DNA from: Polytrichum commune
Taxonomy: Eukaryota; Streptophyta; Polytrichopsida; Polytrichales; Polytrichaceae
Assembly (NCBI GenBank): GCA_950295325.1
Contig: OX485807.1
Coordinates: 1,366,501-1,430,500 of the forward strand
Reading direction: 5' to 3'
DNA length: 64,000 nt
The notes under the pieces: generated by a model
The model's database searches: none
Told to the model about the DNA's origin: nothing
Seen by the model: only the letters and a program-made list of their open reading frames with translations
Program-made: the position numbers and the translations under genes
Part shown: piece after piece, positions 14,351-55,862 of the stretch
Position numbering within the stretch: the stretch's first letter is position 1
Layout of the letters: every line of letters begins with the position of its first letter

Positions 14351-15132
14351 ACTTGACCCATATAGACCGCCCAATCTGCTTGGTCCGCACTCACCAAGTT
14401 ATTGGTTCGAGACTCCATTCATACGCTTCGTTTTCCCAACCGTTTGGGAATGGAAGGCCGTACTAAACTTTAGTTTCATTCCGACTTTTCCTAGAGAAGG
14501 GCCTTCAAAATGCACTTGTGAACTTTGGATCTCGATCCGACACAATCACTTTCGGCAACCCATGATGCCTCCACCATCCATTGAAAAAGGGCCATGTGAT
14601 CTCCAACGCGGTTGCGCTTCCCACAATCGGCACCATGTGTGCCAACTTGGCAAACCGCTTTACCCTCACTAAGATGGCATCATACCCTTGTGTCTCCGGC
14701 AAACTTGTGATCAAGTCCATGCACATAGTATACCATAGCCTCGATGGGATACGCAACGGTTGCAAGAAACCAACTTGCTTTTGGTAAGAGGCTCGGTTTA
14801 CTTGGCATCCACCTAAGCCTTCACAAAGTGGGTTATATCCTCCTTTATGCACCGCCAATGGTACCTCCTTGACATCATTTCATGGTGGTTTTTTTCTATC
14901 TCCTCTATGGCCAGCAATGGAATTATTATATTCTTCCTTCAAAACTGATAGCCTCAACTTACCTTGTGGCACATACTCCTGACTCCGTTATACTTGAACA
15001 ATCCGTTCCCCAACTTAACCTTTTTGAGCACCTTGCTCTTGCAAAGCTCATTTAGAAGCCTTTGTGCTTCGGGATAGTTAATGTATCCTTCCCGTATCTT
15101 GCATCACAAATTTTCTTCACCGGTAAACATTA
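14351..15132 (-). pseudogene. Ty3/gypsy integrase relic
   Basis: The minus strand from 14858 to 14505 reads as part of a gypsy integrase: the DLITSLPETQGYDAILV block, then FAKLAHMVP, then HGLPKVIVSDRDPKFTSAF. The family pattern is D-x-I-x-x-L-P and ending S-D-R-D-x-x-F, which contains the second catalytic Asp. The frame closes soon after, so the last catalytic Glu and the C-terminal domain are missing. Upstream (14860-15110), the remains of the zinc-binding N-terminal region and the preceding spacer are visible, broken by stops (for example YPEAQRLLNELCKSKVLKKV). It is a dead remnant of the element whose LTRs litter this stretch. Confidence 0.8.
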
Positions 15133-32520: not shown

Positions 32521-33670
32521 TTCAAGTTATGAGCTACTTAGCCCTCACATGGGCCTCACATTCATGTAAGTGGATGCAATGTGAATTTTGTAATTTTGGT
32601 GTTAGACTTGTTTGTAATTTTCTATCTATTTGTGTAAAACTAATTTAAGATCTAGTTATTTTACAAATTATGAAATAAACATTACAGTTCAAGTTCATAT
32701 GAACTTTTCATTCATCCTTTTAAAAAAAATTGTTCTTTTCCTCCGAAGCTTGTACATCGAAGGCCCATAGAAGGTCACTAAAACTCGAGCAATATTTCAT
32801 GTTTGAGGTGTTGCTTATTGCAAGGATTGGCCACCTTTAGGAGTGTGGACAACACCTTGAGCCAAAATTATTTCAAAATTGGCATTCAAGTTCATTATGA
32901 GAGACATGGTTCATATTCGGTAAATGAACTCCAATCACCTCTACAATAGGCAAATGAACTTTACATTTGAAAAACCAAATTCAAACATAGATGTCTTTTG
33001 ATATACATAGTTTGAATATGTTCTTTTCATCTAAATCCATGAAAAAAATGATTTTCACTAGCTGCCCCAACTTGAGACTTCAACTTCACAACCAATATTG
33101 AATCTTCTCAAATTTTGTGGAAACAAAAGATTTCTTCCCATACATTCACAATGGAGTTGGTTTTCACATATAATCATAAAATATATTAGGGCGCAACCAC
33201 GGTCAAGTACATGATTCCATTACCATGCACAATTTAACTGAAAGTGATTCAAAACTATATACTAAATTTGAATTTTTAAACAAAAATTTTTACAAACATT
33301 TGAAAAACACATTGATCGAAAAATCCAAGAAATTTTTGTTGATAAAATATTTTTTAAAATAAAATTCTACATATTTTAGAAGGCGGTGCAAGTAGTGTGC
33401 AAGTGGATATATCAAGCATGTAATTGTGTAAAATTTGTTTAAAACATGATAAATTACATTAAATTCATGTGTTGTACAATTTCTTGTAATGGCACCCTCA
33501 AGTTTATAATGAATTCAAGGAATATGGAAAAAATTCCAACTTCAAAATAGTTAAGGTCATGAAATCTACATCCAAAATTAGATTCAGCCATTACCTTTTG
33601 AGCAATACTTTTAATGATAAGTTTTGAAGATCCCATTTTGATATCCTATATTTGAGTACCTAACACAACA
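32521..33670. repeat. A block, copy 2, ending at the giant-element insertion
   Basis: Matches 1-1137. The last four bases (AACA, 33667-33670) are the left target-site duplication of the element that follows. Block B resumes at 49510 after the element. Confidence 0.85.
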
Positions 33671-33698
33671 AACACTATATTCGTTAAATTGAGACTTT
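33671..33698 (+). repeat. Left terminal inverted repeat of the giant element
   Basis: 28 bp, perfect complement of 49482-49509. Just inside, GAGACTTTCTCTAGTCTC forms a short hairpin (33691-33708). The right end also has a second inner GAGAC motif. Confidence 0.9.
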
Positions 33699-34202
33699 CT
33701 CTAGTCTCAAATTAATATATGGATCAAAGAACTTGAAGAGGCCCGAAACTATATTGTCAACAATCTCAATTATATCATATGTTCTAATATCCCAAATCTA
33801 TGATGTGCGGACATAAGCACATATGGTAGAGCACTCGACACCAACTTCATCAACAAAAACACATTGGGTAGAGCACTTCAAACAAGTTTCACCCAAAAAT
33901 ATATATAAAATGATTTCTATTATTAGCATGTTCAATAGAATATAGACATTGCAACATACAAAGTGCATGTAATAAATGTATGTTTCTTCATTCGAGAATA
34001 TAGTCCCAAGCATAATAATAAGATGAACTTCAATTGCAGCTTGAAATATAGTAAATGGATATTCATCCAACTCCAAACAATATAGTATTCGTAAGTTCTA
34101 CCCAAACTCTGCCCCAATTTTGAAGAGCACACATATGTGTAATTTATATTGCTATAATTACGTATTAAACTATAATCATGCTAACACAATCCTACCAACT
34201 TC

Positions 34203-37200
34203 TCATTCAACGTGGGTTGCTTCTTCTGCAATCCGAGCAAGGTTGTCTTTTGCAAAAGTTATGTACTTTTGAGGGATGGACACTGATCCACTATGGTGTT
34301 TCCGTGGTTTCCATGCTATGAATATGGAATCTGTATCTACCCAAGATGGACCGTGCTCAGAATCCACCTTCCACCGAAAGTTAGGGTTTGTATCCCAGCC
34401 TGTATAATGCCGAATCACATCTTCATTCCTTGCTGTCGGTCGATAGTACTCCACTTGTATTTGTCGAAAATGAGGGCTGGAAGTTACAAAATTGGGATTG
34501 GACAAAGCTCTTGCCACCCACACTGGCTTCGCATATGTCTCGTCTCCAGGACGCAAAATGAGCATATAACCTTCATGACAATCCACTGCAATGCGGAAAG
34601 ATGGTGGGGGACGACTACTAGCAGGCCCCACGTAATGGTCGTCCATATCAAACTCCTCTCGAACCTCTCCATTTCCCAAAAGACTAGGCTCTGAAGCTTG
34701 TACATCGACTCGTGTTTGTGGCCAAAATCCATGCCTCAAAGTATGAGGGCTATCTTGGTGGAGGTCTGCCAAGGCGGCACGAACACGTGTCCAATAATGT
34801 ATCCAACTCCCATAACGATGCCAACATGATCCGCCAACATCCGCTATTTTCAAACTCTCCCAATATTGTATGAAGCCTGATATACCTTTCAAAATATCCT
34901 CCAAATTCTTCATGGCTATTGGCTTACAAGGCCTAGGCTCCCCATCCGGTAACATGGTCTTTCCATCCGCATCCACGCGCCACACAAGAAGACCCTCCGG
35001 CGGGCTCCAGTCTTGTGACGTGCACAACAACTTGTATTGCATGGCCGGGACACCATCGTCACGCATATAGAAGCGGAATTGTTGTGCCTTCGTATGCCCG
35101 ATCAATCGGTGAGCTCCACTTCGAATATAAGGTTCTATAAATGCCTTGAAGTCTGGCACCTCCTCAATCATATGGGGGATGACGGGAACGTTCTCCAAAT
35201 CCATGTACGACTTCATCAATAATGGAATTGTAGGGAAATCCTCCTCCCGCAACTTCATGCTCCACCGCCCAAAAGATGCATCAATATCATCGTGCGTGTG
35301 GCCTACCAATAGGAAGGACACAAAAACCTCCTTGAAAATGCCTTTCGCAACCAACAACGACCAATATGCAAATACATATCTGCTTTTATTGTCCTTGGCA
35401 CAATTGTCCAATTGGACACGCAAAGTTGGAGGCAACTTCTTGGCAATCACGGGTTCATTGGGTGGCTCGGGCAACGAATGCAAGCATACATCTTTTCCAT
35501 CCAACACCGCTTCATATAAAGGTGTTGAACCCGTGTTCTCAAATAACAATCCTGAAGAATAGGCTGGTGGTTTCTCTAAATCACGTAAAAGCCTTGCAAA
35601 TGATCCTATCGTGTGGTTTGAATCCGCTGGATACAAATCAAGAGCATAATGAGCAAATTTGACATCACCGTGTCCATGTGCAATCATTCCTGCAATGCCA
35701 ACCCAACGTGATTAGCATCTATGTATGAATAAACCATTATGAAGGAATCCATGTTCTCCAGTACATCACGGAATAAAATACAACAACATTTAGGGTATGT
35801 CATGACATTGTTTCGAAGTTCACCTGTAACCGATACAGGCAACTTGAAAAACCCATCCGTGGCCTTGATTCGATTTGCAAAACATGGGGAGGCTGTTTTG
35901 GCATGGTCCATTTTGTCATGGATGACCGTAAGAACCTCCAAGGGCCTGGAGATGGACAAAGCTCTATTTGTGTAGTAATCATTACGGTGTGCCTCTTGCA
36001 TGTTTACGTGCTTGAAATAGTTCAATTGATGCGCTGCATATGACTCGGTGCCCATCGTGTGTGCATCCCGGAGGCGCTTCAACTTCTCGCAATTAGAGCA
36101 CCTGGCAAATTTGTCCCCTCGTCTTTTTGTAATGTATTCGCTAAAGTTTTGTTTCTTGATTGCACTCAATTTTGACAATGAAATTGGCTCCAACCCAATC
36201 TTCTCGCCAACTGCATTAACGTCCAACAATATGTCTTTCCATTTTGTGCCTGTGGGAAGAACTTTCTCCACAACCTTTTCACCGGTTGTGAGTGTGCGTG
36301 TTTTGTGCGGCATTGCATCGGCAAGAGGGACAATGATGGTTGCTGGAGTGGCCGTTGCTTGCCTTGTTGCTTCCCTAGGCTTCTTTAAACCCACGTTACC
36401 ATGGTGACGGGACCGGCGGCCTTCCTTGGCATAAGCAGCTTGTCTATAAAAGTCCGATTTCGACACACCGTGAATGGTGTACCATGCCTTACAACACACG
36501 TCTATGCTTTCAATGGTGATGACCTTGCGACCCGTCCCATTCACATGTATCGCCCTATGGACATCAAGTTTTCTTGTGGATCTTAGACGGAAATCTCCAA
36601 GCCACATTTCTTCGCGGATGACCTTCAATTTATCCCTTGGAAACAATTGGCAACAACGATGCACACAACAATCCTTTGTGGCAACTTCTCTAATGGACTC
36701 CTCCCCGAGCAACCTTTGACGTTTACAATCAGTTGCAGACGGAGCAGGACGTGCCAATGTATCGTACTTTCTTTGACCCTTGCGCGGCCGCATGTTTGAT
36801 TGTACCTCCTTTTCGATTTGCATGTGTCGTTGCTCATGTTCACGCAAGCTAACTCCATCAATTGTGACATTCCTCAATGGCCACCTGCGGAGGGAGAACC
36901 TATGAGTGGGATCCACCTCGGAATGAACGACCGACTCCAATATGACAACCCCAACGTCCTCAGTGCCAAGCGGGTTTTCATCAATGCAATCTTGCGGATG
37001 GGTGTTACGGCAAATCCCCTCCGCCACAACAACTCCACTATCGTTAAGAAGTATCACCTCCAAATTCACCCACGAAGCCCTTGAAAGTCCCGTACATTCA
37101 ACAATGGGACACTGCGGTACGGAAGACGAAGGTAAATCCAAATGATCTTCATCCGCACTGTCAGCCATAGTAGCCTCCCCGACAATGTCTAGGTCATCAT

Positions 37201-37267
37201 CAGATGCAGATGGCCAAGTGGCCATGTCATCAGATGACCAATCCCCTATTTCACTAAACCCATCCAT
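34203..37267 (-). pseudogene. DUF7869-family transposase of the giant element, one frameshift
   Basis: Two abutting frames make one protein of about 1,020 aa: 35684-37267 (I take the start as MDGFSEIG at 37267; the frame is open to 37360) and 34203-35687. The N-terminal part has a Cys-rich C-C-x-x-x-C-C element near residue 200, a WYTIHGVSKSDFYRQ block, HGNVGLKKP near 290 (a family hallmark), a CSNC element near 390 and IHDKMDHAKTASP near 450. The C-terminal part has RVQLDNCAKDN, then FLLVGHTHDDIDASF. I infer an RNase H-like fold whose acidic residues are in DKMD, LDN and DDID. The frames are joined at a tandem 5-bp repeat (CCAACCCAAC, 35698-35707); removing one copy restores the frame, so this copy is probably recently broken. 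It is transcribed towards the left end. Confidence 0.8.
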
Positions 37268-37439
37268 TCTGCCTACACACATGAACATTGAACATTGTCT
37301 TAAAATCACAAAAATTGTAGGTTCAAATCGAAGAACAAAAAAACCATCATATATAAACAAAATTGCAAATACTCAGTGCTCATACAAGTTCATATGACTG
37401 CTATGCCATTGGGCTTGTAAAGGTTTCGGAAGGCCAGTG

Positions 37440-38440
37440 GCCACACCGACACCCAGATCCCAACCACACTTAGAGGCTGGGTTTGGGTCGAGCGACCCAA
37501 ACCTTTTGGGAGGATGGGTTCAGGCTCAATACAGAGAGCACCCACACTTAGGCGCTGGATTTGGGTCGAGCGACCCAAACCTTCTGGCAGGATGGGTTTA
37601 GGCTCACTACAGACAGCATCCACACTTAGGGGCTGGGTTTGGGTCGAGCGACCCAAACCTTTTGGCAGAATGGGTTTTGGGTCACGACAGGGAGCACCCA
37701 CACTTAGAGGGCTGGGTTTGGGTCGAGCGACCCAAACCTTTTTGCAGGATGGGTTCAGGCTCACAACAGTGAGCACCCACAGTGTAGGGCTAGGTTTGGG
37801 TCGATCGACCCAAACCATGAGGCAGGATGGGTTTAGGCTCACAACAATGAGCACCCACACTGTAGGGCTGGGTTTGGGTCGATCGACCCAAACCTTGAGG
37901 CAGGATGGGTTCAGGCTCACAACAAAGAGCACCCACACTGTAAGGCTGGGTTTGGGTCGACCGACCCAAACCATGAGGCAGGATGGGTTCAGGCTCACAA
38001 CAGTGAGCACCTACACTGTAGGGCTGGGTTTGGGTCGATCGACCCAAACCATGAGGCAGGATGGGTTCAGGCTCACAACAGAGAGCACCCACACTGTAGG
38101 GCTGGGTTTGGGTCGATCGACCCAAACCATGAGGCAGGATGGGTTCAGGCTCACAACAGAGAGCACCCACACTGTAAGGCTGGGTTTGGGTCGACCGACC
38201 CAAACCATGAGGCAGGATGGGTTCAGGCTCACAACAGTGAGCACCCACACTGTAGGGCTGGGTTTGGGTCGATCGACCCAAACCATGAGGCAGGATGGGT
38301 TCAGGCTCACAACAGTGAGCACCCACACTGTAGGGCTGGGTTTGGGTCGATCGACCCAAACCTTGAGGCAGGATGGGTTCTGGCTCAATACAGAGAGCAC
38401 CCACACTGTAAGGCTGGGTTTGGGTCGACCGACCCAAACA
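37440..38440. repeat. Tandem array: 13 units of about 78 bp, each with one palindrome
   Basis: Thirteen copies of TTTGGGTCG-N2-CGACCCAAA, the first core at 37482-37501 and the last at 38419-38438, spaced 77-79 bp apart. Each is followed by a conserved spacer (for example aggatgggttcaggctcac). The two central bases vary between copies (AG, AT, AC). The array begins just upstream of the transposase start, so it could act on its promoter. Because 78 is a multiple of three, several frames stay open across it; these are not genes. Confidence 0.95.
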
Positions 38441-39061
38441 ATTCCGCAAAATCCGCCTATTTATTCGGGTGATGCTCTATTAATCTATTTATAACCTATT
38501 TGGGACAACTGAACTCATAGATGCTTGTTGTAATTAGCTGCTCATGAATGGAAGCGTATACAAACCGTGTATTACAGCTCCAACTTAGAGAGCTTGCAGC
38601 AATCTCAGGATTGGGACATGAAAGAAAGAACCAGCATTTGGGGGGGTTGGGCTCTTTATACTACCCGCCTCCGCTTTGGGCATCCTCTTTGGATGCCTTT
38701 CCCACCTGGTCTCCTTTGGATGTTAATTCAAACCTTCTGACTCAATTTCCCGCTTCTTGTCAATAATAGAGAATGTATATTTAGCTTGGCTCTTCGTTGC
38801 CCCAACCACCAAATGAATAATTCAACATATATTTAAAGTTGTTACCACCCTAACTTGGTCAACACTATTCTTCAACTCTTTCATAATTAGTTTTATACAT
38901 GAATACACCACCACTTTCCCTATTGCCATCTCCTTTCTCCTTTTATCATTGTTGTATATTTTTCTCACATCCTTACTAATACTAAATCCCTATATGTAAC
39001 TTCCATATATCACCATAGTGGATATTTAGTGTTTGAGTTTACATTTAATGTTACTTACTCT

Positions 39062-39196
39062 CATAGGGTTAGTAATGGGAAGTGTATGCGTTCGTTTTAA
39101 GTGTATCAAACACTAACTATCATATAACTAAAAAGGATATAAAGGTTTTGATACACTACATATGAACGCATACACTGAATACCAATAACCCTATGA
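39062..39196. repeat. Foldback MITE-like inverted repeat (~135 bp)
   Basis: tcatagggttagtaatgg at the left pairs with ccaataaccctatga at the right. Inside, gtgtatgcgttcg pairs with gaacgcatacac, and gtgtatcaaa with ttttgatacac. No coding sequence; flanking duplications are not clear. Confidence 0.65.
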
Positions 39197-40009
39197 CAAT
39201 ATGTAAGATTATATCTATTAAGGGGTTTTACTCTACTTGTAGTCAAACATTATGGTATATTTCAAACAATATATTGACAAAAGATGTGCATGTATTATAA
39301 AACTTCATATACTAAAAGTCACTAAATATAATAGTTAATGCTATTATTTAGACTCTCACATGAGGACTTATATTTTGAAAACAAATAATTAATGCCATGA
39401 CAAACTTGAATAATTTGGCCAACTTTCAATTTCTGCTAATTAAAAGAACATATGTTGTGTTGTAATGTGTGCACCCAATATTGCTTCATCCTCAAGACTC
39501 CAAGTGTGACAATAACCTAGTACCTATGTGGAAGTCATTAATGGAACCCTAAACCACAAATGACATTTGGCACGTTCAATCTTCCAAGGATGTTTGAACC
39601 TATCGTGAAGTCCCTTGAACTCTACCAATGTGTGTGAGCAAAACATGCAAAGTTCAAAAGGTATGTCCTCATATCATTCACAACATGAAATCTACTTTAA
39701 ATTAATATATAATATTTCACTATTCCAAATAACATGTTAACATGAACAACATCCTATCCATTATAATCTAGTTCTTATGCTTTTCTTACCAGGTGACAAG
39801 GTTATAGGTTAATATTGTATCACCTACTTGTGAGCACAATATCGTTTATTTCCTTTAGTGCGTTCATTCGTGAAAAACCACACATCCATCTTTCACGTTT
39901 GTGAATTAGGATGTTGTGATGACAATATACATTTGTATTGGAAACTACAAGCACCAAGGCCCATGTCATTTGACCTATGTGCCATCCAGTTATGGTTTGT
40001 GTTGTTTAA

Positions 40010-40037
40010 GGTTTAGGGTTTAGGGTTTAGGGTTCAG
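40010..40037. repeat. Interstitial telomere-like motif (TTTAGGG)n
   Basis: Three to four head-to-tail TTTAGGG units, the last degenerate. It supports a plant origin. The run is far too short for a chromosome end and sits inside the element. Confidence 0.8.
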
Positions 40038-40671
40038 GCATCATCAAACATCAAACTGAATGTTTAAATGACTTCATATGATATGTGAACTCCATGGGGT
40101 TGCAGTAGATACATTTGTAATCATTTGTTTCTCCCATGTACTTCAAATGTGAACTTCTAAGTACATATATTAATGTTCACTCTAATGCTACTTGTTAGGG
40201 TATCCATTATAGACTAGAGCATTGTCCTCTACCAACAACCATCATATAAATTACAATACATAATCCTAAACTGTTAACCATGTGAATGGTTACCATATTT
40301 ATATTATTGCACCGTGTAATTGCCTTTGTGGATTGCAATATAATTATGACTTACTCCTCTTAGACTTTGTAACACTCTCATATGATTCCATAAATTACAT
40401 TATTCATACACCAAAACGATAATGGCTACATTCAACGATGTTATCAATTCCAACGGGTGATCATTCAATTGAACACCATTAAAATATGAGTTGGTGATGG
40501 TGTTAATTTTGTGGAATACCTTAGTCCACGTAGGTTTTTGACTGGTATTGAATTGCCGCTAATGAATAGCGGGTTAGAAGGCCGGGGCCGGGCGGCCAAG
40601 AGAGGCGCCGGCCCTCCTATGTCCCGCACCTAGGGGCAAGGACAACCAGGAAGGCAATCTCCCTAGGGTGG

Positions 40672-40756
40672 CAGGTGTCAACACCACAAGCCTCGCGGGC
40701 AACCACCTAAACCAAGGAGGTGTTGACACCTGGCAAGGTGTTGGCCCGCGAGGCTT
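40672..40756. promoter_or_regulatory. Interleaved inverted repeats upstream of the ParB-like gene
   Basis: CAGGTGTCAACACC (40672-40685) pairs with GGTGTTGACACCTG (40719-40732), and AAGCCTCGCGGGC (40688-40700) pairs with GCCCGCGAGGCTT (40744-40756). The order a-b-a'-b' is interleaved, not nested. It lies at the AT-rich to GC-rich transition, about 100 bp before the pyrimidine-rich leader. A promoter role is inferred from position only. Confidence 0.5.
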
Positions 40757-40786
40757 TTGAGCCGTTGATGGGCCCGGCGCAATCTA

Positions 40787-41416
40787 ATGTCCCGGATTCG
40801 AGGGTTTAGGGTGACCCCTTCCGCTCTCTCCTTCTCTCCCCTCCTCTTTTTTCTTTCTCTCTTTTTCTTCCTCTCTTCCTCCGCGCCAAGCGCCGCTCTT
40901 GGAAACGCCGCCGCCGCTTTCCATAGCGCCGTGCCAAGCGCTTCCTCTCGCACCTTTTGCTTTTGTCTTGGTCGCGCCGCTTCCCTTCATTCTTCTTTCT
41001 CCTTCATTCCTCTCCTCCTCTCTGATGCTTCTCCTCCTCTTCTCTCATTCTATTCCTCGTGTTATTGTCTTCCTCTTCTTATTCTCTCTTCTTGGTCCAG
41101 AGTGTTAGCTTTGAGTGAGTTCGGAGCGGTTTATTGTGTTGAACTCCTTACTTGTTTTGTAAAATTCATGCATGGAGTGATTTTAGGTTGAGTAGAAGTG
41201 AGCACGGTCGAGTGTGATAGAAAGGTAGAGGTCTTTCAAATTAGGCCTGAGTTTGCAAGAATCAGGGGGTTTGTGAGAAAGTTTTAGGGTGCTTGAGAGA
41301 TTCATTGTGTTTCTGAGATCTTTGTGAGAGTTGTTCTTTAGTGCCACAACAGAGTTTCTGAGTCTGGTTGTAAGAAGCAGATTGTGAGAGCAGCTTTCAA
41401 GAGTTTGAAAGACAAG
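40787..41416 (+). other. Probable 5' leader exon of the ParB-like gene
   Basis: CT-rich sequence (40825-41100) typical of a plant 5' untranslated leader, followed by a good donor site, GACAAG|GTAAGC, at 41416/41417. The matching acceptor TTGCAG|ATG lies at 42502/42503. The frame leading into that acceptor is closed by a stop, so I treat this exon as non-coding. The transcription start is a guess. Open stretches here code only for low-complexity Ser/Leu/Phe sequence. Confidence 0.5.
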
Positions 41417-42502
41417 GTAAGCAATTTGCATCAGTGCACACAATTTGCATCATTCCCTTTAGGTTCCTGTTACATATACAATGCATAAGCATTGTATATG
41501 TTGCCCAAGCATTAAACATGCATCTGGAAACACAGTAGTTTGGGGAGACGACCCAAACTCATATTAAAATATAATAAATATTTGAATTGCAGCCTAAAAT
41601 GAACTAAAGGTTTGGGTCGTTCGACCCAAACATTGCAGCCTCTTGTTTGGGTCGAGCGACCCAAACATTGGAGCCTCATTATGTTTGGGTCGCTCGACCC
41701 AAACATTACAGGGAGAAGAACTAAACCACATTGTAAAATATAAAAGAACTTCAAAAATTAAGTAAATGTTTGGGTCGTTCGACCCAAACATTGCAGACTG
41801 AAATGACTGGGTTGAGGTACCTAAATTTGCAGCCTAACATGTTTGGGTCGCTCGACCCAAACATTACAGGGAGAAGAACTAAACCACATTGTAAAATATA
41901 AAAGAACTTTGAAAATTAAGTGAATGTTTGGGTCGTTCGACCCAAACATTGCAGTCTGAAATGATTGGGTTGAGCTACCTAAATTTGCAACCTAACATGT
42001 TTCGGTCGGTCGACCCAAACATTACAGGGAGAAGAACTAAAGCACATTGTAAAATAAAAGAGAAATTTGAAAATTAAGTAATTGTTTGGGTCGTTCGACC
42101 CAAACATTGCAGTCTGAAATGAATGGGTTGAGCTACCTAAATTTGCAGCCTAACATATTTGGGTTGCTCGACCCAAACATTACAGGGAGAAGAACTAAAC
42201 CACATTGTAAAATATAAAAGAACTTCCAAAATTAAGTAATTGTTTGGGTCGTTCGACCCAAACATTGCAGTCTGAAATGAATGTGTTGAGATACCTAAAT
42301 TTACAGCCTCATCATGTTTGGGTCGCTCGACCCAAACATTACAGGGTGACCACCTAAACCACACTTTAAAATCTAAAAGATCTTTTAAAACGACTTTGAA
42401 AATTAAGTAAATGTTTGGGTCAATCCTCCAAATGTTAAATGCACATTGCAATACTTTGGGTCGATCGACCGAAATTCACAGTTTCGATTTCTTGGATTGC
42501 AG
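41417..42502 (+). repeat. Predicted intron 1 carrying 12 palindromes in a ~157-bp tandem repeat
   Basis: Bounded by GTAAGC and TTGCAG. Palindrome cores lie at 41611, 41646, 41684, 41769, 41842, 41926, 42000 (imperfect), 42085, 42158 (one mismatch), 42243, 42316 and 42455 (one mismatch), with further decayed forms near 41538 and 42412. From about 41684 onward, palindromes with a CT spacer and palindromes with a TT spacer alternate, giving a larger unit that contains acattacagggagaagaac. As in the array, the half-sites are kept while the central two bases vary. Confidence 0.85.
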
Positions 42503-44998
42503 ATGGCCCCTAAAAAGAGACCAGGTGAAAGGTGGTTCATGCTCGCGCCAGACCACCTTTGGCAGGAGTATGAAACTCCACAGGACGATTCTTACGTCCC
42601 AAAAGATGGCGTCGTTTTGGCATGGTCCGTTCAGGTGGTGAAGGCATCCATGTTCAAGCTGCTATTCGTGGTGAAGGTGGGGACCCACGAGCAGCACACC
42701 TGGGCAACGCTGACGGGATGGGAGGTTGCGTCCGTCCAGTCTCTCGGGAACTACGTAGACGTGATACTGGAGAACTCCGCCGTGCAGAACGTCCACATGT
42801 TCATGCACCAGTTCTCCGAGCCCTTCGACCCCCTGTACGCCAAGGAGACTTGCGTCGACCCTGAAACCATAAAACCGGAGGCCATATTCATAGATGGTAG
42901 TGTAACGAACACGAAGGTTGCGAGCAGGTTCACGAAGTTAAAACAGGCTATCACGGTTCTCAACAAGGCGCTGCAAAGCAAACCCAAGACGCAGCAGCCT
43001 GTGAGGCGGAAGGCAACGACGGAAGAAGGCGCAGGGTCCTCAAGACCACAAACTGTGAGGAAACCGCGGGCGGTCCCTGCAGACTCGAGACGGACGAGCA
43101 CTACAACAACGCCGGCTGACAGCGAGACGCCAACGCCATCAGGAAGCCGTCAGACGACCCCTTCCAAGAGGGGAAGAAAGTCATCGGGGATGACTGACGA
43201 GCCTGTTTCCCCGGAGCTCCGGATGCCGAAGCCTGGCCAAGAAGTGGATGCAGGCGAAATACAAAAAATAAACAACAACTTCGAGACAAAATGCCTGCAC
43301 TGCTTCTTCATGGGCAGGGACTTCAAATTCGAGGTCAACATTGCGCAGTGCCACCTTGCGCCACCAGAGAAGTGCGTCCGAGCCAAGGAGGACGCCTACG
43401 TCGACTGGATGGTCGCTCAAATCTTGGGCGGGCAGTTCAAGGACGACAGGCAGACAATTGTTGTCATGCCACAAGGGCTGAAAAGAATGCCAACGCCTGA
43501 GATGTGGCCGACAATCTCTAAAGGAGACTTCTGGCTGATTGACGGGCAGCACAGTGTGGAGGCCTCGAAAAAAATCCAGCTGATGACCGAGTGGGACGAC
43601 CCGAACAACCAGAAGGAGAAGCTAAAAGTTTGGAAGGCTTTGGTGGTTTGGTCGGACAACGAGACGGTCCTCAGCGACATCTCCAGGTTCTTCAACATGG
43701 GGAACAAAAAGAGGGCCTATCAGGCATCGTGGATCAGAAACATCATGGCCTCGAGGGAGGTGTGGGAGTTTTATGGAAGGCCTCCCAAGGAAAGGAAGAG
43801 TGTTTTTGAAAAACACGAGACGGGGGACCTCATGGACCCCGACACCGGCATGCTCTTCAACCAGACTACGCGCTTCAAGCAAATGAAGCCTCTGGTGAGG
43901 GAGTTCTTCAGAGCGCTTCAAGGTCTCTCCGAGACAGAGATGGGAAAAGCGGCGTCCCACATCCTACACGTGGAGACGACGGCGAAGAGATGCTGGGTCC
44001 ACCCTAAGATCGTCTTCACCAAACCCAAGATCTTCGTCCCTTCATGCTACACAATGAAGGAATGGACGGAGAACAGGAAGAAGAAGACGACCATCGTCCA
44101 GGAGCTGCACAAGCTTGTGCCAGAGAAGAAGCTCATCGTGGACGGAGAGGTCGACGAGGCGCACTGGAGGGCCTTCAAAGCCGAATATAAGTTTACCAGT
44201 GCGTCCATGGCGGCACTCATGAGGGAGGCGGGAGACGACTTCCTCAGATCCAAGCTCGTGAAGGGGGGGAGGAACCGGGCGCTTCCCGAACACTCAGTGC
44301 GGGCCTTCTCCAACTTCATAAAGGAGAAGAAGATCGTCAGTTTCGAAGGCGATGCGCAATTCAACATGGTCACTGTCGAACCTCTCAGGATCCAGGGTTG
44401 GCCGGGTTCTGAGTCAAGGAAGGCGATCAGGACTAGAGCCGGGGACCGCTTCCCCTTCGGAATGATAGACTTCAGGAACATCCCTGGAGCCTCATTCGAG
44501 GGGACTATGAGCACCCCTTTTTACGATCCTTTCTTGTCGAAGTTCGTGGACTACGCCAGCCCCAAATTCAGGGAGGTCGACGTCTGGCTCTGGATTGTCG
44601 AGGACAGAAGGGCAGAGCAGGTTTACGAGATCGTGCGCAAATTGCAGCCGGAGTATGCCGTCTCAAAATCTCACTACGTTGCTGCACCGGCGGAGGGGGC
44701 GTACAGCACGCTGAAAGACAAGAAGACGAAGATCGTCAACGTGCTGTGTTTGTACTTCGTGTACAAAGCTGAGCTGCTTAAGGTGCCAAACCATCCCATA
44801 GCCAGGATGGAAAAGCTCTTCCAAGTCCAAGAAGGGTTGGGTACCAGCAGGAGCTTATATGACGAGGCGAAGTACGCCAACTACCCCGCGGATGAGCTGC
44901 GCATGGAGTTCTACCTGCGGATGATGAGGACCCTCACGAAGAGAGGGGACTGCATCTTCAACGTTTTCGGGGGGTCCAAACCGATTTTTGCAGCCATG
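42503..44998 (+). CDS. ParB-like / methyltransferase-like gene, first coding exon
   Basis: Encodes 832 residues from the ATG placed directly after the acceptor. Residues ~1-110 are unrecognised. ~160-240 are basic, Ser/Thr/Pro-rich linker. ~255-365 resemble a ParB/Srx-fold domain: FKFEVNIAQCHLAPPEKC, VDWMVAQILGG, an IVVMP strand, then WLIDGQHSVEASK, with D347-G-Q-H-S at 43541-43555 where ParB-like families usually have D-G-x-H-R. The C-terminal part (~670-832) resembles the end of a beta-class N4/N6 DNA methyltransferase: GDCIFNVFGGSKPIFAAM stands where D-P-F-x-G-S-G-T-T would be. No clear D-P-P-Y motif is seen, so methyltransferase activity is doubtful. ParB plus methylase fusions are known from phages and bacteria. 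The exon is GC-rich with a codon usage unlike its surroundings. It ends ATG|GTAAGC, phase 0. Confidence 0.75.
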
Positions 44999-45209
44999 GT
45001 AAGCAGAAAACCCAGAAGTCCCTATACGTTCGGTTTGGGTCGAACGACCCAAACTAGGGGCATGCACAGTTTGGGTCGAGCGACCCAAACTAGGGCCATG
45101 CATAGTTTGGGTCGAGCGACCCAAACTAACTATTCTTATTTTGTTTGGAAGTCATTTTCCATTATATGTTCATTTGGTGTTACTAATAGTATTGATTTTG
45201 ATTGTGCAG
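44999..45209 (+). repeat. Predicted intron 2 with three palindromes
   Basis: GTAAGC donor and TTGTGCAG acceptor, phase 0. Palindrome cores lie at 45034-45053, 45070-45089 and 45106-45125. Splicing it out joins ...GGSKPIFAAM to MSGLNIYSYVEDADV..., which together follow the methyltransferase motif I region through its next strand and helix. That supports the intron. If unspliced, the frame stays open but reads palindrome-encoded peptide such as LGRATQT. Confidence 0.75.
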
Positions 45210-46689
45210 ATGTCTGGGTTGAACATCTACTCCTATGTAGAGGATGCCGATGTTCAATTCTACAGGACCCAAAAGGCGCTGGCCAAGAGAATGGACATCC
45301 TCGACTGGATACCCGGATCCTACGTCGAAGAGATCGTCGAGGGGGGCGAGAATCCTTTGGATATTGCGAGGCGAATCAACCCGGGTGAATTCGCCATGCG
45401 GGCCCCCGTTCAATTGCCAGAGCCGCTCATCGGGTTGCATCCGGGCAATCCGTCTATGGGAGCAGGTGGCAGGGTTGGGGAGGAGGGGGAGGAAGACGAG
45501 GAGGAGGCGGAGGAGGAAGCAGAGAAAGTGGAGGGGGAGGTGGAGGAAGGGGCAACAGGATTCACTCAAGAATCCGAGGCCCCTCAGCGGAAGAAGGCCA
45601 TGCGGCCTGCCACGCCGCAGAGCAGGCTGGTGCCCGCGTTGACGGTGGACGACGCCAAGGATATGTACTCGAGGGACGCGACGGCCACCTTCAGGGAGCG
45701 TAGAAGGATGAAGGGGAAGAAGCTGTACGGGGACTATGCGGTGGAGGAGACGATCGCAATAAGCTCCGAGGACGAGGACGACATGGAACTCGCCAAGAAG
45801 TTGAGGTCTGATCCTGCCTCCCCCAGAGCGTTCGCCGGGAATGTGAGGGTGAAACCGGAGGTCCTCACCGTGGAGGAGGCGAACGCAAAAATGCTCCGAG
45901 ACGAGGAGCAGCGTGTGCGACTGCAGAGGGCTGCCGCCGAGGAACCCTCTGTCCGCAACGAAGTCGCGGAGTTGAGGGCTCTCCTGTTGGAGCAGGAGCG
46001 GCAAAGGGCGATGTCCCAAACTCCGTCCCAAGCGGACCTCATCACGCAAGTGATCCAGGGCATGCTGGCGCAGGGATTGGTGATGGCTCCCCCGAGTTCA
46101 TTCCCTCACTTGCCCGCAGGCTTCCCTCCACAGGATATCCGCCCGCGGCCGGCGTTGGAGCATTCCTTCAGCTTCGCGGATTTGCTGCAGCCGCACGCCC
46201 GTCCTTACGCGCCTGTGCAGCAGGTGGATGATCCAAACCTTTGGCGCGTCCCCGGAGCGTCCAGCTCGTTGGCACCCCCCCCCGCTCCGGCCTCCCATCC
46301 TCTTGCCCCCACACCACCAGCGGGACGACCCCCACATGTTTGGGTCGTCCGACCCAAACAGTGCCGACGTTGCAGCGTCGCAGAGCGACCCTCGCCAAGC
46401 AGCAGGGTTTGGGTCGGCCGACCCAAACCCCGTCCCCCATCAGACCCCGGTCGACGAGCCTATGCTAGATGTTGAAGGCCCGCAAGGGCCTGGTGATACC
46501 TCTACTCCTAACCCAGTCGATGAACCAATGCATGATGCGCATGCGGAGGTTGGGTTGGGACAAAGGCCTGACAGTCAGCCTTTGCAGGAGCAGGTTGCGG
46601 CTGACGGCGTCGTCGGAGGCGGCGGTGACAGAGGTGGGGCAGCGCACGCGATGCCGGCATCAACGTCGTCAAGGCACGACCAAGGCGAG
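45210..46689 (+). CDS. ParB-like gene, second coding exon: linker region with a C9-tract frameshift
   Basis: Begins MSGLNIYSYVEDADVQFYRTQKALAKR, completing the methyltransferase-like fold. An acidic run follows (Glu-rich, 45478-45560), then charged helical sequence likely to form a coiled coil (VEEANAKMLRDEEQRVRLQRAAAEE), then Pro-rich low-complexity sequence. The exon is 1,480 nt, one more than a multiple of three. The first frame stops at 46473-46475, while a second frame is open from before the C9 tract (46275-46283) to the donor GAG|GTAATG and continues in phase 0 into the next exon. A one-base gain in the C tract explains both facts. Two palindromes (cores 46339-46358 and 46408-46427) lie within coding sequence and read as FGSSDPN and FGSADPN in the second frame. 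Confidence 0.65.
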
Positions 46690-47191
46690 GTAATGCACTG
46701 ACCCCACTCAGTTTGGGTCGGCCGACCCAAACTTCCTGGGTCTTTGACTTCTTGCCTTGGTCGTGTCCCCTAGCTAGGACGAACTTAGGCCCCCCCCGGC
46801 ACTCGCGCCCTTCGTCACCCCCAGCGACCATTCGTTCGTCCACCTACCCCCGGCTTTGCAACGAAGTCTTCATCACGGCGGCCCGTCTCTTCAATTTTTT
46901 CTAGATGTAGAAGTAGGCTAGTTTGAACGCATCGTTCAACGCGGCTCCCCCAATCAAGATGTACATAGAGCATTGTATATAATATAATCACCATTTTTGA
47001 CTCCTATATACTTGTATATTGTGTTTGAATGTATTTTGTATGCTCTTGTATCCCTTGTATCCCTTGTTGCACCCCCTCCAAAATGAATCAAATGCTTTTG
47101 TGTTTGCACCGAGAACGCTCGTTTCCTTAATGCTTCGTTTGGACATAGCATGACATAAGTCGCCCCCGTTTTCTCTCGCTCGTATCCGCAG
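46690..47191 (+). repeat. Predicted intron 3 with one palindrome
   Basis: Donor GAG|GTAATG and acceptor CCGCAG|GGC, phase 0. A palindrome core lies at 46712-46731. The middle (46960-47130) is AT-rich, unlike the GC-rich exons on both sides. Confidence 0.6.
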
Positions 47192-48008
47192 GGCTCGGAG
47201 CATAGCGTAGCGGCTCCCCGACGCTCTTCCCCAAGGAGCGGAGAGGGCAGCGCGGCGGCGCCCCCGGTTTTACCCGCCCCGCCCCCGCTGCCGAAGAAAC
47301 GATTCCTGGTGTTAGACCTGAACGGGGTCCTCGTCCAATGCGTTCATTGCCCTAGGACCCCCACGGTGCCCTTTTGCAAGCCCGAGGACGCTAATTACGA
47401 CGGGCCGCCCACGTTCATAAAGAGCAAACTAGTTCACCTCCGCCCGTGGCTTCGGACCTTCCTCCAGATCGCCCAACAACGATGGTGGGTGGTCGTGTGG
47501 AGCTCCATGACGGCCGAGAACACCAATGCGGTCGTGGAGTTCATCTTCAAGGGCATCGAGCCCCCCTGCATGGTCCTAGCACAGGAAGCCTGTAGAATAT
47601 TGTACACACAGGACGGCAAAGTCGTCAAAAAACCAAACAACCCCGCTTCCCCCCAATACCTCAAGGTCTTGAAGCCCATTTTTTGGGACCAGCGACCGTC
47701 CTTGATAGGCGTCCCCTACGACGTCCGCCCCACCCGCGAGAACACGCTCATGGTGGACGACAGCGCCGCAAAGAACATGTTGAACCCGACGGCCAACTTC
47801 ATAGTGTGCCCTACGTGGACGGTCGAGAAGGTCCGGGACCGATTTTTGTTAGACCTTAGTAAATACCTCCAGGCGCTCTGGGGAAGCGGACTTCCCGTAA
47901 ACAATTTTGTTAGGAATAATCCCATAGGCGAGAGATACTTGGATCCACGAGACCATTTGTACAGAGAGTTGTTATCTCACGCGAAATTTAACAAGCTCAT
48001 TTGAGACA
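47192..48008 (+). CDS. FCP1/SCP-like HAD phosphatase exon of the ParB-like gene
   Basis: After a Pro/Ala-rich lead, RFLVLDLNGVLV carries the HAD nucleophile Asp (47315-47317), but the usual second Asp of D-x-D is Asn. From memory, D-L-N-G forms also occur in plant FCP1-homology proteins. WWVVVWSSMT is motif II, and NTLMVDDSAAKN is motif III with Asp-Asp at 47756-47761. The YLQAL and FVRNNPIG stretch matches the usual C-terminal end. FCP1/SCP enzymes dephosphorylate phosphoserines of proteins such as the RNA polymerase II tail; whether this one does is unknown. The frame stops at TGA 48002-48004, just before a donor at 48008/48009. Removing one T from the preceding TTT would let the frame reach that donor in phase 0, like every other junction here. 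Confidence 0.75.
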
Positions 48009-48147
48009 GTACGTGTGTTTGTATGTGTGTGTGTGTATATGCGCCTACCCATTTTGTGTAATTTACGCTTCATATGTATCTTGATTTTCACGCGCTCTAT
48101 CTCCCCCCTTTTCCTTGGGTTTTGTTTTGTTCCAATTTTGGCTCCAG

Positions 48148-48501
48148 CGTTTGGAGCCCTCGATTGACGTCGTCAGCGAGTCAGACTTGGGGAGCTTCTT
48201 CTACGAGACCGTTTACGACGCCGCGTCAACCATCGACTACTCCAAGGAGCCTCTTGACGCCGGCGTCGTCGATAGCCCCCCACCCAAGCAAATCTTCCGG
48301 CGATCTGCGTCCCCGTCACCGCTCAAAGGCATAAATCGCAAATGCGTCCGGACATCCCCCTCTCGGCCCGGCGGCAGTAGTACACCTCAACGGCGGCTGC
48401 GGATGGATGCTCGGCCTACGAAGAGTGGAACCCTTCCTATTCCTTTGCGGGATGCCTTGCCCCTCCTCGCCAACTCCGACGGGAACGCCCCCGGTGACAA
48501 G
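48148..48501 (+). CDS. ParB-like gene, predicted tail exon
   Basis: 118 codons open between acceptor GCTCCAG|CGT and donor GACAAG|GTGAAC, phase 0 at both ends. The product (SESDLGSFFYETVYDAAST, later PPPKQIFRRSASPSPLKG) has no recognised domain and is rich in Ser, Pro and Arg. It belongs to the upstream gene only if the stop at 48002 is bypassed or is a mutation. Otherwise it is an untranslated exon or part of an overlapping transcript. Confidence 0.45.
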
Positions 48502-48639
48502 GTGAACCCCCCCCCCCCCCCAAAAAAAACATGGTTATCCGCGCATTACAATCATTTTGCACTTAAAAAATGAATGTGTGACACGTTTGGGTCTTCCTCC
48601 CTAAACTAACACATGTGTTCTTGCGTTGACGCGTTGCAG

Positions 48640-48960
48640 GTTGCTCCCACCCGTAAACCTATGCGGTCTAGTGCGTCCATCGAGTTGGAGCGTTTCTACT
48701 CCATGACCAGAAATGCAAGACAGTCCACTTCATCGTATTCGAATTCTTCGTCGTATAATTCGGGCGGCCGACGGAATACAAAATGTGTTATTGATGGCGT
48801 TCACCCCAAGAATGGCTATAGTCGCGGGGCGGAGATTTTCAGGAATGTTGAAGCAATGCGAGCAAAAGAAGCTGCAGCAAAAGAAAAAGAGGCAAAAGAA
48901 AAAAAAAAAGCAAAAGAAAATGAAGCAAAAGAAAAAGAGGTAGTATCCGAGGCTAGATAG
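48640..48960 (+). CDS. ParB-like gene, predicted last exon with Lys/Glu/Ala-rich helix
   Basis: Acceptor TTGCAG|GTTGCTCCC, 106 codons plus TAG. It has a Ser-rich start, then RRNTKCVIDGVHPKNGYSRG, then a long A-K-E repeat helix (48855-48945), likely a highly charged single helix or coiled coil. Phase 0 with the previous exon. The intron between them (48502-48639) contains a decayed palindrome at 48583. Confidence 0.45.
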   Translation, partial: VAPTRKPMRSSASIELERFYSMTRNARQSTSSYSNSSSYNSGGRRNTKCVIDGVHPKNGYSRGAEIFRNVEAMRAKEAAAKEKEAKEKKKAKENEAKEKEVVSEAR

Positions 48961-49481
48961 GCCATAGTAGGCGTAGGGTTTTGGGCCATAGGCAAGAACA
49001 TTTTGGGTCGCACTATCCAATGCATGTGTGGTGTTAGCATGATATGCATTTTACATGCCACACTTTGTATGTTTTTTTTTTGCAATAATACAAGTTAGAC
49101 ATGATTTCCCCTTCCATATGGTCTAAGGTTTGGATTGCCCTACCTAAACCATCACAAATATGAGTTTGGAATATTTTGTATGCAATATTATATTGGTTAA
49201 CATATTAACCCTTCAATAAGATCTATGGTTTGGATTGCCCTACCTAAACCATATTCATACAAGCTCTAATATTTTGTGTGCAATAATATGAATGTTTTAA
49301 GGTTTCCCCTTAAATGTGGTCTAAGATTTGGATTGCCCACCCTAAACCATCACAAATATGAGTTATTTATGGGGTTCTTGGTCTAAACACCTGCTTCAAA
49401 GTGTTCGCATCTTACAACTTTCTCCAATATGTGTTCCATTTATCCTTGTTCTTATTTATGTGAATGTCTCAAAATGCCCAA
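48961..49481. repeat. Right subterminal region with decayed palindromes
   Basis: Three copies of a related imperfect dyad, GGTTTGGATTG-CCC-TACCTAAACC and close variants, at 49127-49150, 49227-49250 and 49325-49348, spaced about 100 bp. A half-decayed TTGGGTCGCACTATCCAA lies at 49003-49020. These look like worn versions of the TTTGGGTCG dyad and could be subterminal binding sites. No gene seen. Confidence 0.65.
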
Positions 49482-49509
49482 AAAGTCTCAATTTAACGAA
49501 TATAGTGTT
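49482..49509 (-). repeat. Right terminal inverted repeat of the giant element
   Basis: 28 bp, perfect complement of 33671-33698, followed by the target duplication AACA at 49510-49513 and then B-block sequence (atagagggagcc). Confidence 0.9.
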
Positions 49510-51107
49510 AACAATAGAGGGAGCCATATAAACTACTTAACTTTGCTACTACCTTTAGGAGTTTGACCAAAAGAAATATGGTTTTAGTATATTGGATTGT
49601 GCTTGCTCCCGTTTGTAGTAGTGCATTGAATTGCCCTCAACATCAAGGGTGATATGAAACTTACAAGTTCATTGGAATGCACCCCAAAACAACAAAGGTT
49701 CTAATCATTTAAACTTATACATGCAACACATTCATCACCAAATAAATACACCCTCCCCCCCCCCCCCAAACCCATATTGAGCATCTCATAATAGTTTTCT
49801 TGTACATGGTGACAATAAGAATGAAATCATTGAATAATAATAATAATAATAATAACTCATGGTAGTTTTGCTTTCTACTTGGGCATGTTATGGGAATTAG
49901 ACTAATATGTGAATGAGGAGAAATGGGGTTGCATCTCATTTGAACCAATGACAAATACATACGAAGTATTGGGTTAGTGTGCCTATTGTGACAAATTGGG
50001 TGGAAGAAAGGTCATGAATTAACAACCTCAAGATTTCAAATCGGAACTCATTTTCTCAAAGCATTCCATATTTTATCAATTTTTGGCAATGCCATGGAAA
50101 ACTTTACTTCAAGTCAATTTTACAAATTTGGGAATTGTTATATTCTGAGGCTTAAATGCATGTCAAATGGGGGTGTCCATGCAAAACTTCCCTTCAAGTG
50201 AGGTATGCTTATTCGGAGCCCTTGACGTAGTTATGCATGGTTAATTGCAAGAGTGTCACAATGAATTTACCAACCAAAAAAGTGTCCTTCACAATATGAG
50301 AGGAAATAATCGCATGCAAGTGTGCCTCTCATTCATCCATATTAACAATAACATATGTCTTTTGTATGTTTGTGATTAATTTATTTCAAACATAATCACA
50401 TCCAACTAAATTGGGGGTTTTGTAGCTAATTCCAACTACAAAATACTGAAATATTGTAACTTGAGACAATCTAAGCTTGAAATTTTATCAATCTTGCTTA
50501 AATATTGTCATTAAAGTTCTTGAGGTTTGCAAGTTTTTTAATTTTTTAATTTTTAACCCCTAGGCCAAGTGGAACTAGTTTCTATAGGAGGTCCAATAGT
50601 TTTCAAAATTGGATGAGATCCAATGGAGTCAGAAATTCAAGCATGAATGGGTTGTTCACCACAATATGCTAGACAATTGAGTCTCAAATATTGTTTTTTT
50701 TCCCATTCTTATTCTTAGTCAACTGACAATTTAACAAATCCAACAAACAATGTTGGCAATGTTGAGCTTAGATTGGATTTACTTGGTCAACATGCAAAAT
50801 TAGTTGTCAAAAGGGCATTTCATTTATTTGATTATTGTGCTAGTTTTTTTGGATTGAGAAACAATCAAGACTTGTAGGCCAATTAATAGAATTGGACTCT
50901 AAGTTGAAGTACATAAACTCTAATACTTATGTGACCATGTTATGTCATGTTTGAATGAACTGTTGATTTAAATCCAATTCTTCGATACCACGATGACAAA
51001 ATTTTGTATTCTTCTTCTATTTTTCATTTTTCATTTTTTTGTTTGCAAAAGTATGTGGGAAGAGTTAATGCTTTACATGATGTCCATCAAATTTGGGGCC
51101 CTTCATT
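49510..51107. repeat. B block, copy 3 (right flank of the giant element)
   Basis: Matches 1138-2763 after the target duplication, including the C homopolymer (49747-49767) and (AAT)n tract (49832-49855), whose lengths differ from copy 1. No gene seen. Confidence 0.8.
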
Positions 51108-51305
51108 TTAGGAAGCAAAAGAGAACTTCAACCTTGAACATTGGTTGAGGCATTTACACATGTCTACAAAAATGTCATGCGTGCCAACATCTACATGGAT
51201 AAAACCCCATTTCACTAAAATGTCTACATCCTCAAGAGCTTTCATTATATTTTTGTAACTCCTAGTCCAATATTTCAAATATCCATACATCAATAATTCA
51301 TACAC
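51108..51305 (-). pseudogene. DUF247 gene fragment, second copy of 2764-2964
   Basis: 65 codons nearly identical to the fragment at 2764-2964, including RSYKNIMKALEDVDILVKWG and VGTHDIFVDMCK. Same truncation, so inherited with the block. Confidence 0.7.
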
Positions 51306-52401
51306 TACAAGATGGTGGAGGTTTTATATGAATGCTTCAAAATCATATCAAAAAAGAACTTTCATAAACTTTATCAAATTTTAAATCATGTGAGAATGGA
51401 GAATGTTATCCCCAAAAGCTCTTTGGAGGGACCAATGCCCATGTGAAACGGTTTAAATGTTCAATCATGAATTTAATGATTTTGTTTGGGAAAACCTTGT
51501 GAAAGACAATGACCCCTTTAGTTCATAGGGAATGCTAACATAGTGTAGTATTTATGCAATAGACCTCGAGGATGGAGAAGGCTTGATGTCTTCCTTTACG
51601 TGCTACCCTCCCCCCCCCCCAATCCTCACCAAGAAAAAATTGAAAATTGAAAACTTAGTCAACTATATTATAACACATACTACACTTTTGATAGTTGATT
51701 CAACTCCGACATCAAGGGTCTCCAACCAAATTGAATATTATAGGTGAATTACTTAGGCCACTTGTCCACCGAATTCTCCCAAATGCAAATTGAATATGAT
51801 GAGGTAGGATTCATATTGTGCCAACTAGCTACTCTTAGCTTCTCAAATCTAGGTCCGGGTTACTTACCTCCTCCTTCTAAAATCGGTCTTCAAGCCTTCA
51901 CTGACTAACAAGTTGATGTTAAGAGTGAGGAAACCAGGTGCATAATGAAACAGAGTAACGGTGCTAACTCAAACTCTTGAACTATTTTGATCAAGGGGGG
52001 AACTGCCCTTATATACAATATGGCTTGACACTTGGACTAGGTCCAAGTGTCGGCACCTAGTTACACCGTGGACTAGCTACCTCGGTGGGAATATTCTAGC
52101 TCGGCCTCGGTCTCCTACACCAAGACCGATGCCCTTAACTAATTGTTTGCTCATAAGTTGAGATACCTTGGACTTGTGTGCACGGCCTCCTACCGGCGGC
52201 CGCCACTTTACTTAAGGTGGCTAATGCCCATGTGGGACTAATTAATAGCGATTAGCTTCCATGCTAGATGATTGTTAACCTAGGTTGCCTAGGTGCTTAT
52301 CCATTATCTTAACACTCTTCCTCAACCTAGGATTAACCTCATTAAAAACTTTCTCAAGTAAAACCCGGCTCGGGACAAAAACCTTGAGAAAGAAAAAAAT
52401 G

Positions 52402-55400: not shown

Positions 55401-55862
55401 TTACTTCTTCATCGCCCTGCATCGCCGTGCAGAGGTGGATATTCCTCGCCCTCAGATCCCGATAGCTGATCAGGCTCCTCGGCGCATCTGGGGCGTACAT
55501 TGCCTTCTCGCAATTGAGGGGGAATCCCCCGGGCAAGATAATTGTTGCCCGGCCCTCCCGGAACCTTAGCGTCCGGCTTCCGGCCATTGTAAGTATTTTA
55601 CAGGTGGACCAGGACTTCTCACTTTGGAAGTGGAAGAATTGTGCCTTAGTTAGGATTGTGTGAGTTGATGCGCTATCCAGGAGGGCAACATCTTGGGTTG
55701 ACGTGCCTCCTTCCCGGATAGCCATAAAATTTTCCACATCAAAATCAAGATCGAGCATGTCTGAGGGTTCAAAGTTGTAATTCTGCCTTGGTTTATTACG
55801 TAGCTCTTGCAATTCTCTGAACATATCTACAATGTACTGTGATGCCTTGCAATCCTTTGCAA
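52402..55862 (-). pseudogene. Copia pol: protease, integrase, reverse transcriptase, RNase H (broken)
   Basis: Order on the minus strand is the Copia order. Protease shows LLDSASTHTIL. The integrase zinc region shows WHSRLGHPG and CVACIQGK, and the core shows HGDICGS, RMDNAQEF and GLAEAF with the D, D and E residues. A stop follows at ...SRLPSTM, ending the first frame at 54625. Reverse transcriptase (53197-54525) includes YLDVVTAYLHG-type sequence, LKQSGRAWYHH and the catalytic YVDDLNIIG. RNase H (52402-52914) shows GFADSGF, KSTKQTVTAILTNHAELLA and EDNAACI. Frames also break near 53190 and 52990. The element is therefore not autonomous. Confidence 0.9.

Follow-up and report, generated by a model that had tools for sequence, protein, structure and literature searches.

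The window, meaning the whole stretch of DNA analysed, comprises 64,000 nucleotides of Polytrichum commune (GenBank assembly GCA_950295325.1, contig OX485807.1, positions 1,366,501 to 1,430,500 of the forward strand). A stretch of 15.8 kb within it corresponds to a single insertion of a DNA transposon that has three genes, is present in high copy number and was recently active. The element carries a DUF7869 gene for a putative transposase, a large gene, a gene for a NIF/FCP1-type phosphatase and several arrays of a 22-bp palindrome (Table 1).

The 28-bp perfect inverted termini, the AACA on both sides and the paralogous empty site claimed by an initial annotation were all recovered. Both terminal inverted repeats (TIRs) matched in 28/28 positions and were the sole such sites in the window (no other with up to 8 mismatches). 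Window positions 1-1139 were aligned to the left flank of the element (32522-33671) with 91.9% identity, and positions 1135-3560 to its right flank (49510-51915) with 91.7% identity. Since the two alignments overlap at 1135-1139 (AACAA), one AACA in the exact empty site corresponds to AACA-element-AACA. Read symmetrically, the element measures 15,839 bp, runs from AACACTA to TAGTGTT and is bordered by a 4-bp duplication.

Table 1. Features of the element and of its empty site (window coordinates).
Feature	Position	Strand	Remarks
AACA of paralogous empty site	1135-1138	.	flanks 1-1139 and 1135-3560 match 32522-33671 and 49510-51915, respectively
Left target-site duplication AACA	33667-33670	.	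single AACA at 1135-1138 in empty paralogue
Left TIR, 28 bp	33671-33698	+	28-mer with 330 + 342 exact copies genome-wide
DUF7869 gene, exon 2	34206-35689	-	Pfam PF25273, E 1.1e-42; GT-AG intron
DUF7869 gene, intron, 134 bp	35690-35823	-	GTGAAC..TTGCAG
DUF7869 gene, exon 1	35824-37267	-	start codon at 37267
78-bp tandem array upstream of DUF7869 gene	37464-38439	.	13 copies of the 22-bp palindrome
Large gene, putative intron in 5' untranslated region	donor ~41414, acceptor 42502		splice sites by eye
158-bp tandem array of the 22-bp palindrome	41596-42384	.	in the putative 5' untranslated region intron of the large gene
Large gene, first coding part	42503-44998	+	with ParB-type DGQH motif
Large gene, next intron	44999-45209
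Three palindromes in this intron	45033-45126	.
Large gene, last coding exon	45210-46701	+	two palindromes (46338, 46407)
NIF/FCP1-type phosphatase open reading frame (third gene)	47159-48004	+	Pfam NIF, E 3.8e-15
Further NIF exons	to ~48959	+	by eye
98-bp right subterminal repeats	49074-49358	.	degenerate palindromes (GTTTGGATTGCCCTACCTAAAC)
Right TIR, 28 bp	49482-49509	-	28/28 match to left end
Right target-site duplication AACA	49510-49513	.

For analysis of the family, the source assembly (407.8 Mb) was searched with the terminal 28-mer. Exact copies numbered 330 in forward and 342 in reverse orientation, and the reversed control gave 0, which excludes chance for the ends. Pairing was based on the complete list of 90 exact ends on contig C1. 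Neighbouring ends less than 50 kb apart formed 34 inward-facing pairs, none facing outward and 4 on the same strand. Spacing was 14.4-18.5 kb in 21/34 inward pairs, 4.8 kb in one and 22.7-44.1 kb in twelve; thus, paired termini at the predicted distance of 10-20 kb are common, and the finding that would have spoken against the element, absence of other paired termini, was not obtained. One of the twelve long pairs (63977224) contains an 11.7-kb insertion.

Twelve places besides the window were examined at length (10 first, then 2 chosen from listed end pairs). A right end was found within 18 kb in 4/10 of the first places, and both ends in 2/2 further ones; as the latter were picked from end pairs, counts of complete copies describe a selected set. 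Four places lacking a right end within this distance (c1_63977, c3_53209, c4_36797 and c2463) had large internal insertions; in c45134 and c2_67847 the match to the element broke off early and no right end followed within 18 kb. At C5:2463141 the element is split by an insert with ends similar to the 28-mer (3 and 4 mismatches), likely a sister family nested inside the element. Six two-ended copies were thus available besides the window, five of 14.9-17.0 kb and one 4,780-bp deletion derivative. A 4-bp duplication flanked 7/7 two-ended copies including that in the window (AACA, ATTT, CAAT, CTAA, ATAA, ATAA and CACT), and comparison of 3 or 5 bp at the same ends failed in all seven. The six full-length copies, window included, fell into three sequence groups, with four of them near-identical. 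Three complete sister copies shared 97.6-99.8% identity with the window copy over long stretches, from which recent movement of the family follows. The DUF7869 gene, the large gene and the NIF/FCP1-type phosphatase gene were present in 6/6 full-length copies. The predicted joint occurrence of duplications and the DUF7869/large gene pair at other copies was thus borne out, and the complete copies at other loci, with these same ends and 4-bp duplications, bear out movement as one unit. They also rule out two separate small insertions at the ends, and the common gene order in 6/6 complete copies rules out that the right half arrived later as a nested insertion.

The spliced DUF7869 protein has 976 amino acids and is free of stops; its PF25273 match scored 146.2 bits (gathering score 26). 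The intron is supported by 5/5 relatives (67-70% identity over exon 1), which terminate or lose similarity immediately after the same residue. Named moss homologues were 44-51% identical. A modelled DUF7869 homologue resembles DDE transposases/integrases; this supports the protein as a transposase with a predicted DDE/RNase H-like core, in line with the transposase-like character proposed for it at the outset. PDB profile searches returned only chance-like matches and Rfam no match, viral contigs searched with the DUF7869 and large proteins contained no relative, and the name DUF7869, a Pfam domain of unknown function, was not mentioned in the literature searched.

The window copy of the large gene is damaged. 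About 300-420 bp of the sister copies are missing from it (an exon end, a palindrome-containing intron and the start of the next exon), leaving the frame open, and within a C run of the last exon the frame changes; in sister copy c39381 this frame is open to the exon end. Among eight tabulated copies only c42505 was stop- and gap-free in all aligned exons, and in each of the other seven the large or NIF gene was affected by one or more stops, gaps or missing parts. Relatives of the large gene without organism name numbered 3 in a first search and 81, including those 3, in a profile search; these metagenomic sequences (42-95% identity) form a family of their own. Scoring of 51 out of 1871 first-look candidates in the source genome revealed at least 101 large-gene matches, and many of these had open frames. 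On C1, 6/10 large genes among the matches scored lay inside exact end pairs, which occupy 0.99% of that contig. Of the other four, three had an unpaired exact end at a distance of 5.9-11.4 kb, and the fourth was 10.3 kb away from an end of a neighbouring pair.

The NIF gene, which was absent from the gene list of the initial annotation, is found in all 6 complete copies and is kept between subfamilies (domain match 56.4 bits, gathering score 21.8). Phosphatases usually carry a DxDx motif; the domain here reads DLNGVL instead, so that catalysis is uncertain. As a guess, the targets of the phosphatase at the element may be RNA polymerase II or chromatin.

The 22-bp palindrome reads GTTTGGGTCGNNCGACCCAAAC. 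With up to 5 mismatches, 36 copies were detected in the window, all of them in the element, compared to 1, 1 and 0 for three mononucleotide shuffles. At a limit of 3 mismatches 31 copies remained; in these the arms were nearly invariant, and nine different dinucleotides occupied the centre. The palindrome was also present once beyond the last exon of the large gene and, in sister copies, in the intron missing from the window copy. Degenerate versions (4 mismatches) lie approximately 280 and 380 bp from the right end; there is no palindrome within 3.8 kb of the left end. The same positions were occupied in the diverged complete copy c1_2112, where the upstream array has units of 64/56 bp that share little with the 78-bp units except the palindrome. 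The 4.78-kb deletion derivative has no palindrome at up to 3 mismatches and nevertheless moved; the main arrays are therefore dispensable in cis. Genome-wide, 9231 exact copies were counted (control, none). Of the first 100, 61 were enclosed by exact end pairs, 16 had an unpaired end within 18.5 kb and 23 were located elsewhere, with element stretches making up 2.5% of the span that holds these 100. Translated palindromes were read in 3/3 and then in 28/78 more large-gene relatives, mostly near one end of the reading frame, and in 0/88 DUF7869 relatives, a weak control because DUF7869 frames are not expected to enter such arrays.

A second palindrome locus, with 32-bp units, was observed on C1 at 477.7-483 kb, upstream of frames that encode a DGNHR motif and a domain of N6/N4 DNA methylases (N6_N4_Mtase, E 5.7e-05, below the curated cut-off; PHROG 67, E 2.2e-09). 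It is a second case of the palindrome beside genes of such general make-up. No element end was found at 460-484 kb (up to 2 mismatches over the first 13 bases), and homology of these genes to the large gene was not detected with hhalign (Prob 0.5 for the DGNHR exon, 0.1 for the methylase).

Selection was assessed by Nei-Gojobori codon comparison (ratio of nonsynonymous to synonymous divergence, dN/dS) with sister-copy exons as reference. Against two diverged complete copies, dN/dS was 0.05-0.21 for all three genes. Values against c23380 were.129 and.126 (DUF7869 exons),.120,.072 and.206 (large gene) and.080 (NIF); against c1_2112 they were.196 and.121 (DUF7869),.054 and.202 (later large-gene exons) and.199 (NIF), with synonymous sites of the first large-gene exon saturated at a dN of.087. 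Other copies, partial or decayed, gave.07-.52, and near-identical copies 0 to.57, which with at most 9 changes per exon is little informative. All three genes are thus shown to be constrained in the lineages that spread. Synonymous divergence from c1_2112 was.31-.45 in the DUF7869 exons and.84 and above in the large gene (approximately two- to five-fold), and this inequality between genes of one element pair suggests that gene modules may have been exchanged between element lineages.

The initial annotation had described the large gene as travelling with the transposase gene and as unrelated to transposition. The former holds in 6/6 complete copies; the latter is not supported, in view of the constraint and the common palindrome. 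Given a constraint similar to that of the DUF7869 gene, the presence of the palindrome also upstream of that gene and the translated palindromes in relatives elsewhere, the large gene has the character of a functional component of the element, not of passive cargo.

TIRs, a target duplication of constant length and multiple copies, as expected of cut-and-paste transposons with a DDE/RNase H fold, are present. CACTA elements start with CACTA/CACTG and duplicate 2-3 bp of target; En/Spm, a member of this class with TnpA and TnpD, is likewise a large multi-gene element with an accessory DNA-binding protein (putative here), and CACTATA is found two bases inside the end of the present element. CACTA/En-Spm was ruled out by the AACACTA start, the 4-bp duplication in 7/7 copies and the lack of a CACTA transposase domain among the matches. 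VANDAL elements, whose transposase is VANA, are Mutator-like with a duplication of about 9 bp, whereas DUF7869 was the sole find in the transposase frames here and the duplication is 4 bp; a Mutator-like assignment was ruled out by this duplication and by DUF7869 not being a MuDR-type transposase. In layout, VANDAL/Hiun is close to the present element. According to PMC5735166, Arabidopsis VANC21 binds a short motif that is tandemly repeated in VANC21 and VANB21 introns and upstream of VANA21, and VANC causes methylation loss. Both systems have a transposase gene (putative here) plus an accessory protein gene, tandem arrays of a motif that lie in accessory-gene introns and also precede the transposase gene, and repeat units that differ among related elements while the motif persists (PMC5735166). 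The VANC motif is short, whereas a 22-bp palindrome and an extra NIF gene are found here; no sequence link between VANC and the large protein was found, no search having been aimed at one.

Ginger elements also make 4-bp target duplications and have an integrase-like catalytic fold, as predicted here; according to PMC2836005, termini are TGTNR, and Ginger1 measures approximately 2.6-7 kb with TIRs of 40-270 bp. By comparison, the present element starts with AACACTA, has 28-bp TIRs and a length of about 15-17 kb, and gave no integrase (rve) Pfam match; Ginger was ruled out by AACACTATATTCG ends instead of TGTNR. Two further groups of mobile elements carry epigenetic enzymes. In fungi, DNA transposons from several superfamilies encode TET/JBP dioxygenases and combine a DNA-modification gene with a transposase gene; transposases, accessory enzyme and host differ from those here, and the text does not mention the term 'tandem repeat' (PMC12730594). 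Retrotransposons of charophytes and dinoflagellates with cytosine methyltransferases place an epigenetic enzyme on a mobile element in the plant lineage; they differ in being retrotransposons and in encoding C5 methyltransferases (PMC5890265). Literature searches on DUF7869, moss DNA transposons, ParB/methyltransferase transposons, TIR cargo and new 4-bp superfamilies gave, by title and abstract start, no description matching the element. DUF7869-based transposons may already be in Repbase under another name.

We propose that the large protein would bind both the palindromes upstream of the transposase gene and those in the introns of its own gene, and that through them it would switch the element on, most likely by countering silencing by cytosine methylation, as VANC does. 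By this analogy, the chances that the large protein is a VANC-like, palindrome-binding controller or de-silencer of the DUF7869 transposon appear evenly balanced. In four sister copies, 59/67 transitions were at C/G, with 3.9 transitions per thousand site-copies at CpG, 1.5 at other C/G and 0.25 at A/T. Such a footprint is expected of methylated cytosines; silencing thus probably acts on the copies, and an element-encoded counter-measure would be sensible. It equally suggests that the sister copies may have been silenced for some time. Alternatively, the protein could be a transposition co-factor that binds palindromes and subterminal copies to assemble or protect the ends, with no part in silencing. 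The degenerate palindromes near the right end, the constraint on the large gene, similar to that on the DUF7869 gene, and the frequency of two-protein transposons, for which TnpA of En/Spm and MURB are model co-factors, are in its favour. Since most palindromes are upstream of the DUF7869 gene and in introns, with none near the left end, and the derivative lacking them still moved, this role is possible but not what we would expect.

The palindrome could also be an independent repeat, such as a spreading minisatellite or miniature element, with no link to the large protein. This would account for its copy number and for the 23 of the first 100 copies outside elements with exact ends, where those examined had 32-bp units and other flanks. 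We regard it as unlikely in view of the nearly invariant arms around a variable centre, the same sites in a diverged subfamily with unrelated units, and one outside array upstream of the DGNHR and methylase frames. A reading of the large protein as an active DNA methyltransferase with a fused ParB-type domain, marking its own element, was suggested by an FxGxG-like motif of beta-class methyltransferases at the end of its C-terminal half (by eye) and by the methylase domain at the second locus. As the profile of the large gene aligned to that methylase with Prob 0.1, no methylase was among the Pfam or PDB matches and no DPPY-like motif was seen by eye, assignment to the beta class was rejected and an active enzyme of this kind is very unlikely. 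Gene capture is frequent in plant transposons and NIF domains are common in hosts, so the large and NIF genes might be captured passengers. Both are constrained between subfamilies, which is not as expected of passengers, both are in 6/6 full-length copies, and the metagenomic relatives of the large gene form their own family; capture is hence highly improbable.

As to the nature of the large protein, a stretch ending in FWLIDGQHSVEASK shows a weakly supported resemblance to the ParB-type DGQHR motif. In a permissive scan, PHROG 1033 (ParB-like) matched 8/20 members of the large-protein family (best E 0.0075); 18 other families were also matched, one unnamed in 15 members and one with a best E of 0.0051. 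A phage search with homologue P0168 gave 7 non-significant records (E 2-8), of which 3 are annotated as ParB-like and 2 more are duplicate records of the same phages; of the remaining two, one has this match without annotation and one is different. The same kind of search with the large-gene segment of the window gave no match. With hhalign, the large protein aligned to a Staphylococcus phage 85 protein with Prob 90.8 over 22 columns (DUF7869 control, 0.1). Pfam and NCBIfam scans of the large protein contained no ParB-type domain, and its structure model was uninformative. It is conceivable, though quite improbable, that a large protein of ParB type loads at the palindromes that precede the transposase gene and at those in its own introns, and that it spreads over the element, whose 16 kb it would keep unsilenced or apart from host chromatin. 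If true, a eukaryotic transposon would combine a ParB-type protein with self-carried parS-like palindromes, a mechanistically different and independent counterpart of VANC.

Elsewhere in the window, host-like genes, which we take to be of the DUF247 type, are repeated at 6563-8495 and 59073-60641 among repeated units of a few kb, and the empty site sits in a set of units related to those holding these genes. Copia-type retrotransposon reading frames (labelled by eye) at 52402-56887 on the minus strand are unrelated to the element. An older, scrambled remnant of a related DUF7869 gene at 16102-17927, with pieces of 69-86% identical residues, adjoins inverted repeats at 12150-17306.

DUF7869 gains a mobile element and a testable role from this family, whose ends are defined, whose 4-bp duplication is constant and which has several hundred exact ends as well as near-identical copies. 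The palindrome is directly accessible to protein binding assays and methylation maps. Should the palindromes be the sites through which the large protein acts, at least two unrelated control systems encoded by mobile elements would have evolved in plants, both with motif arrays upstream of the transposase gene and in introns of the accessory gene.

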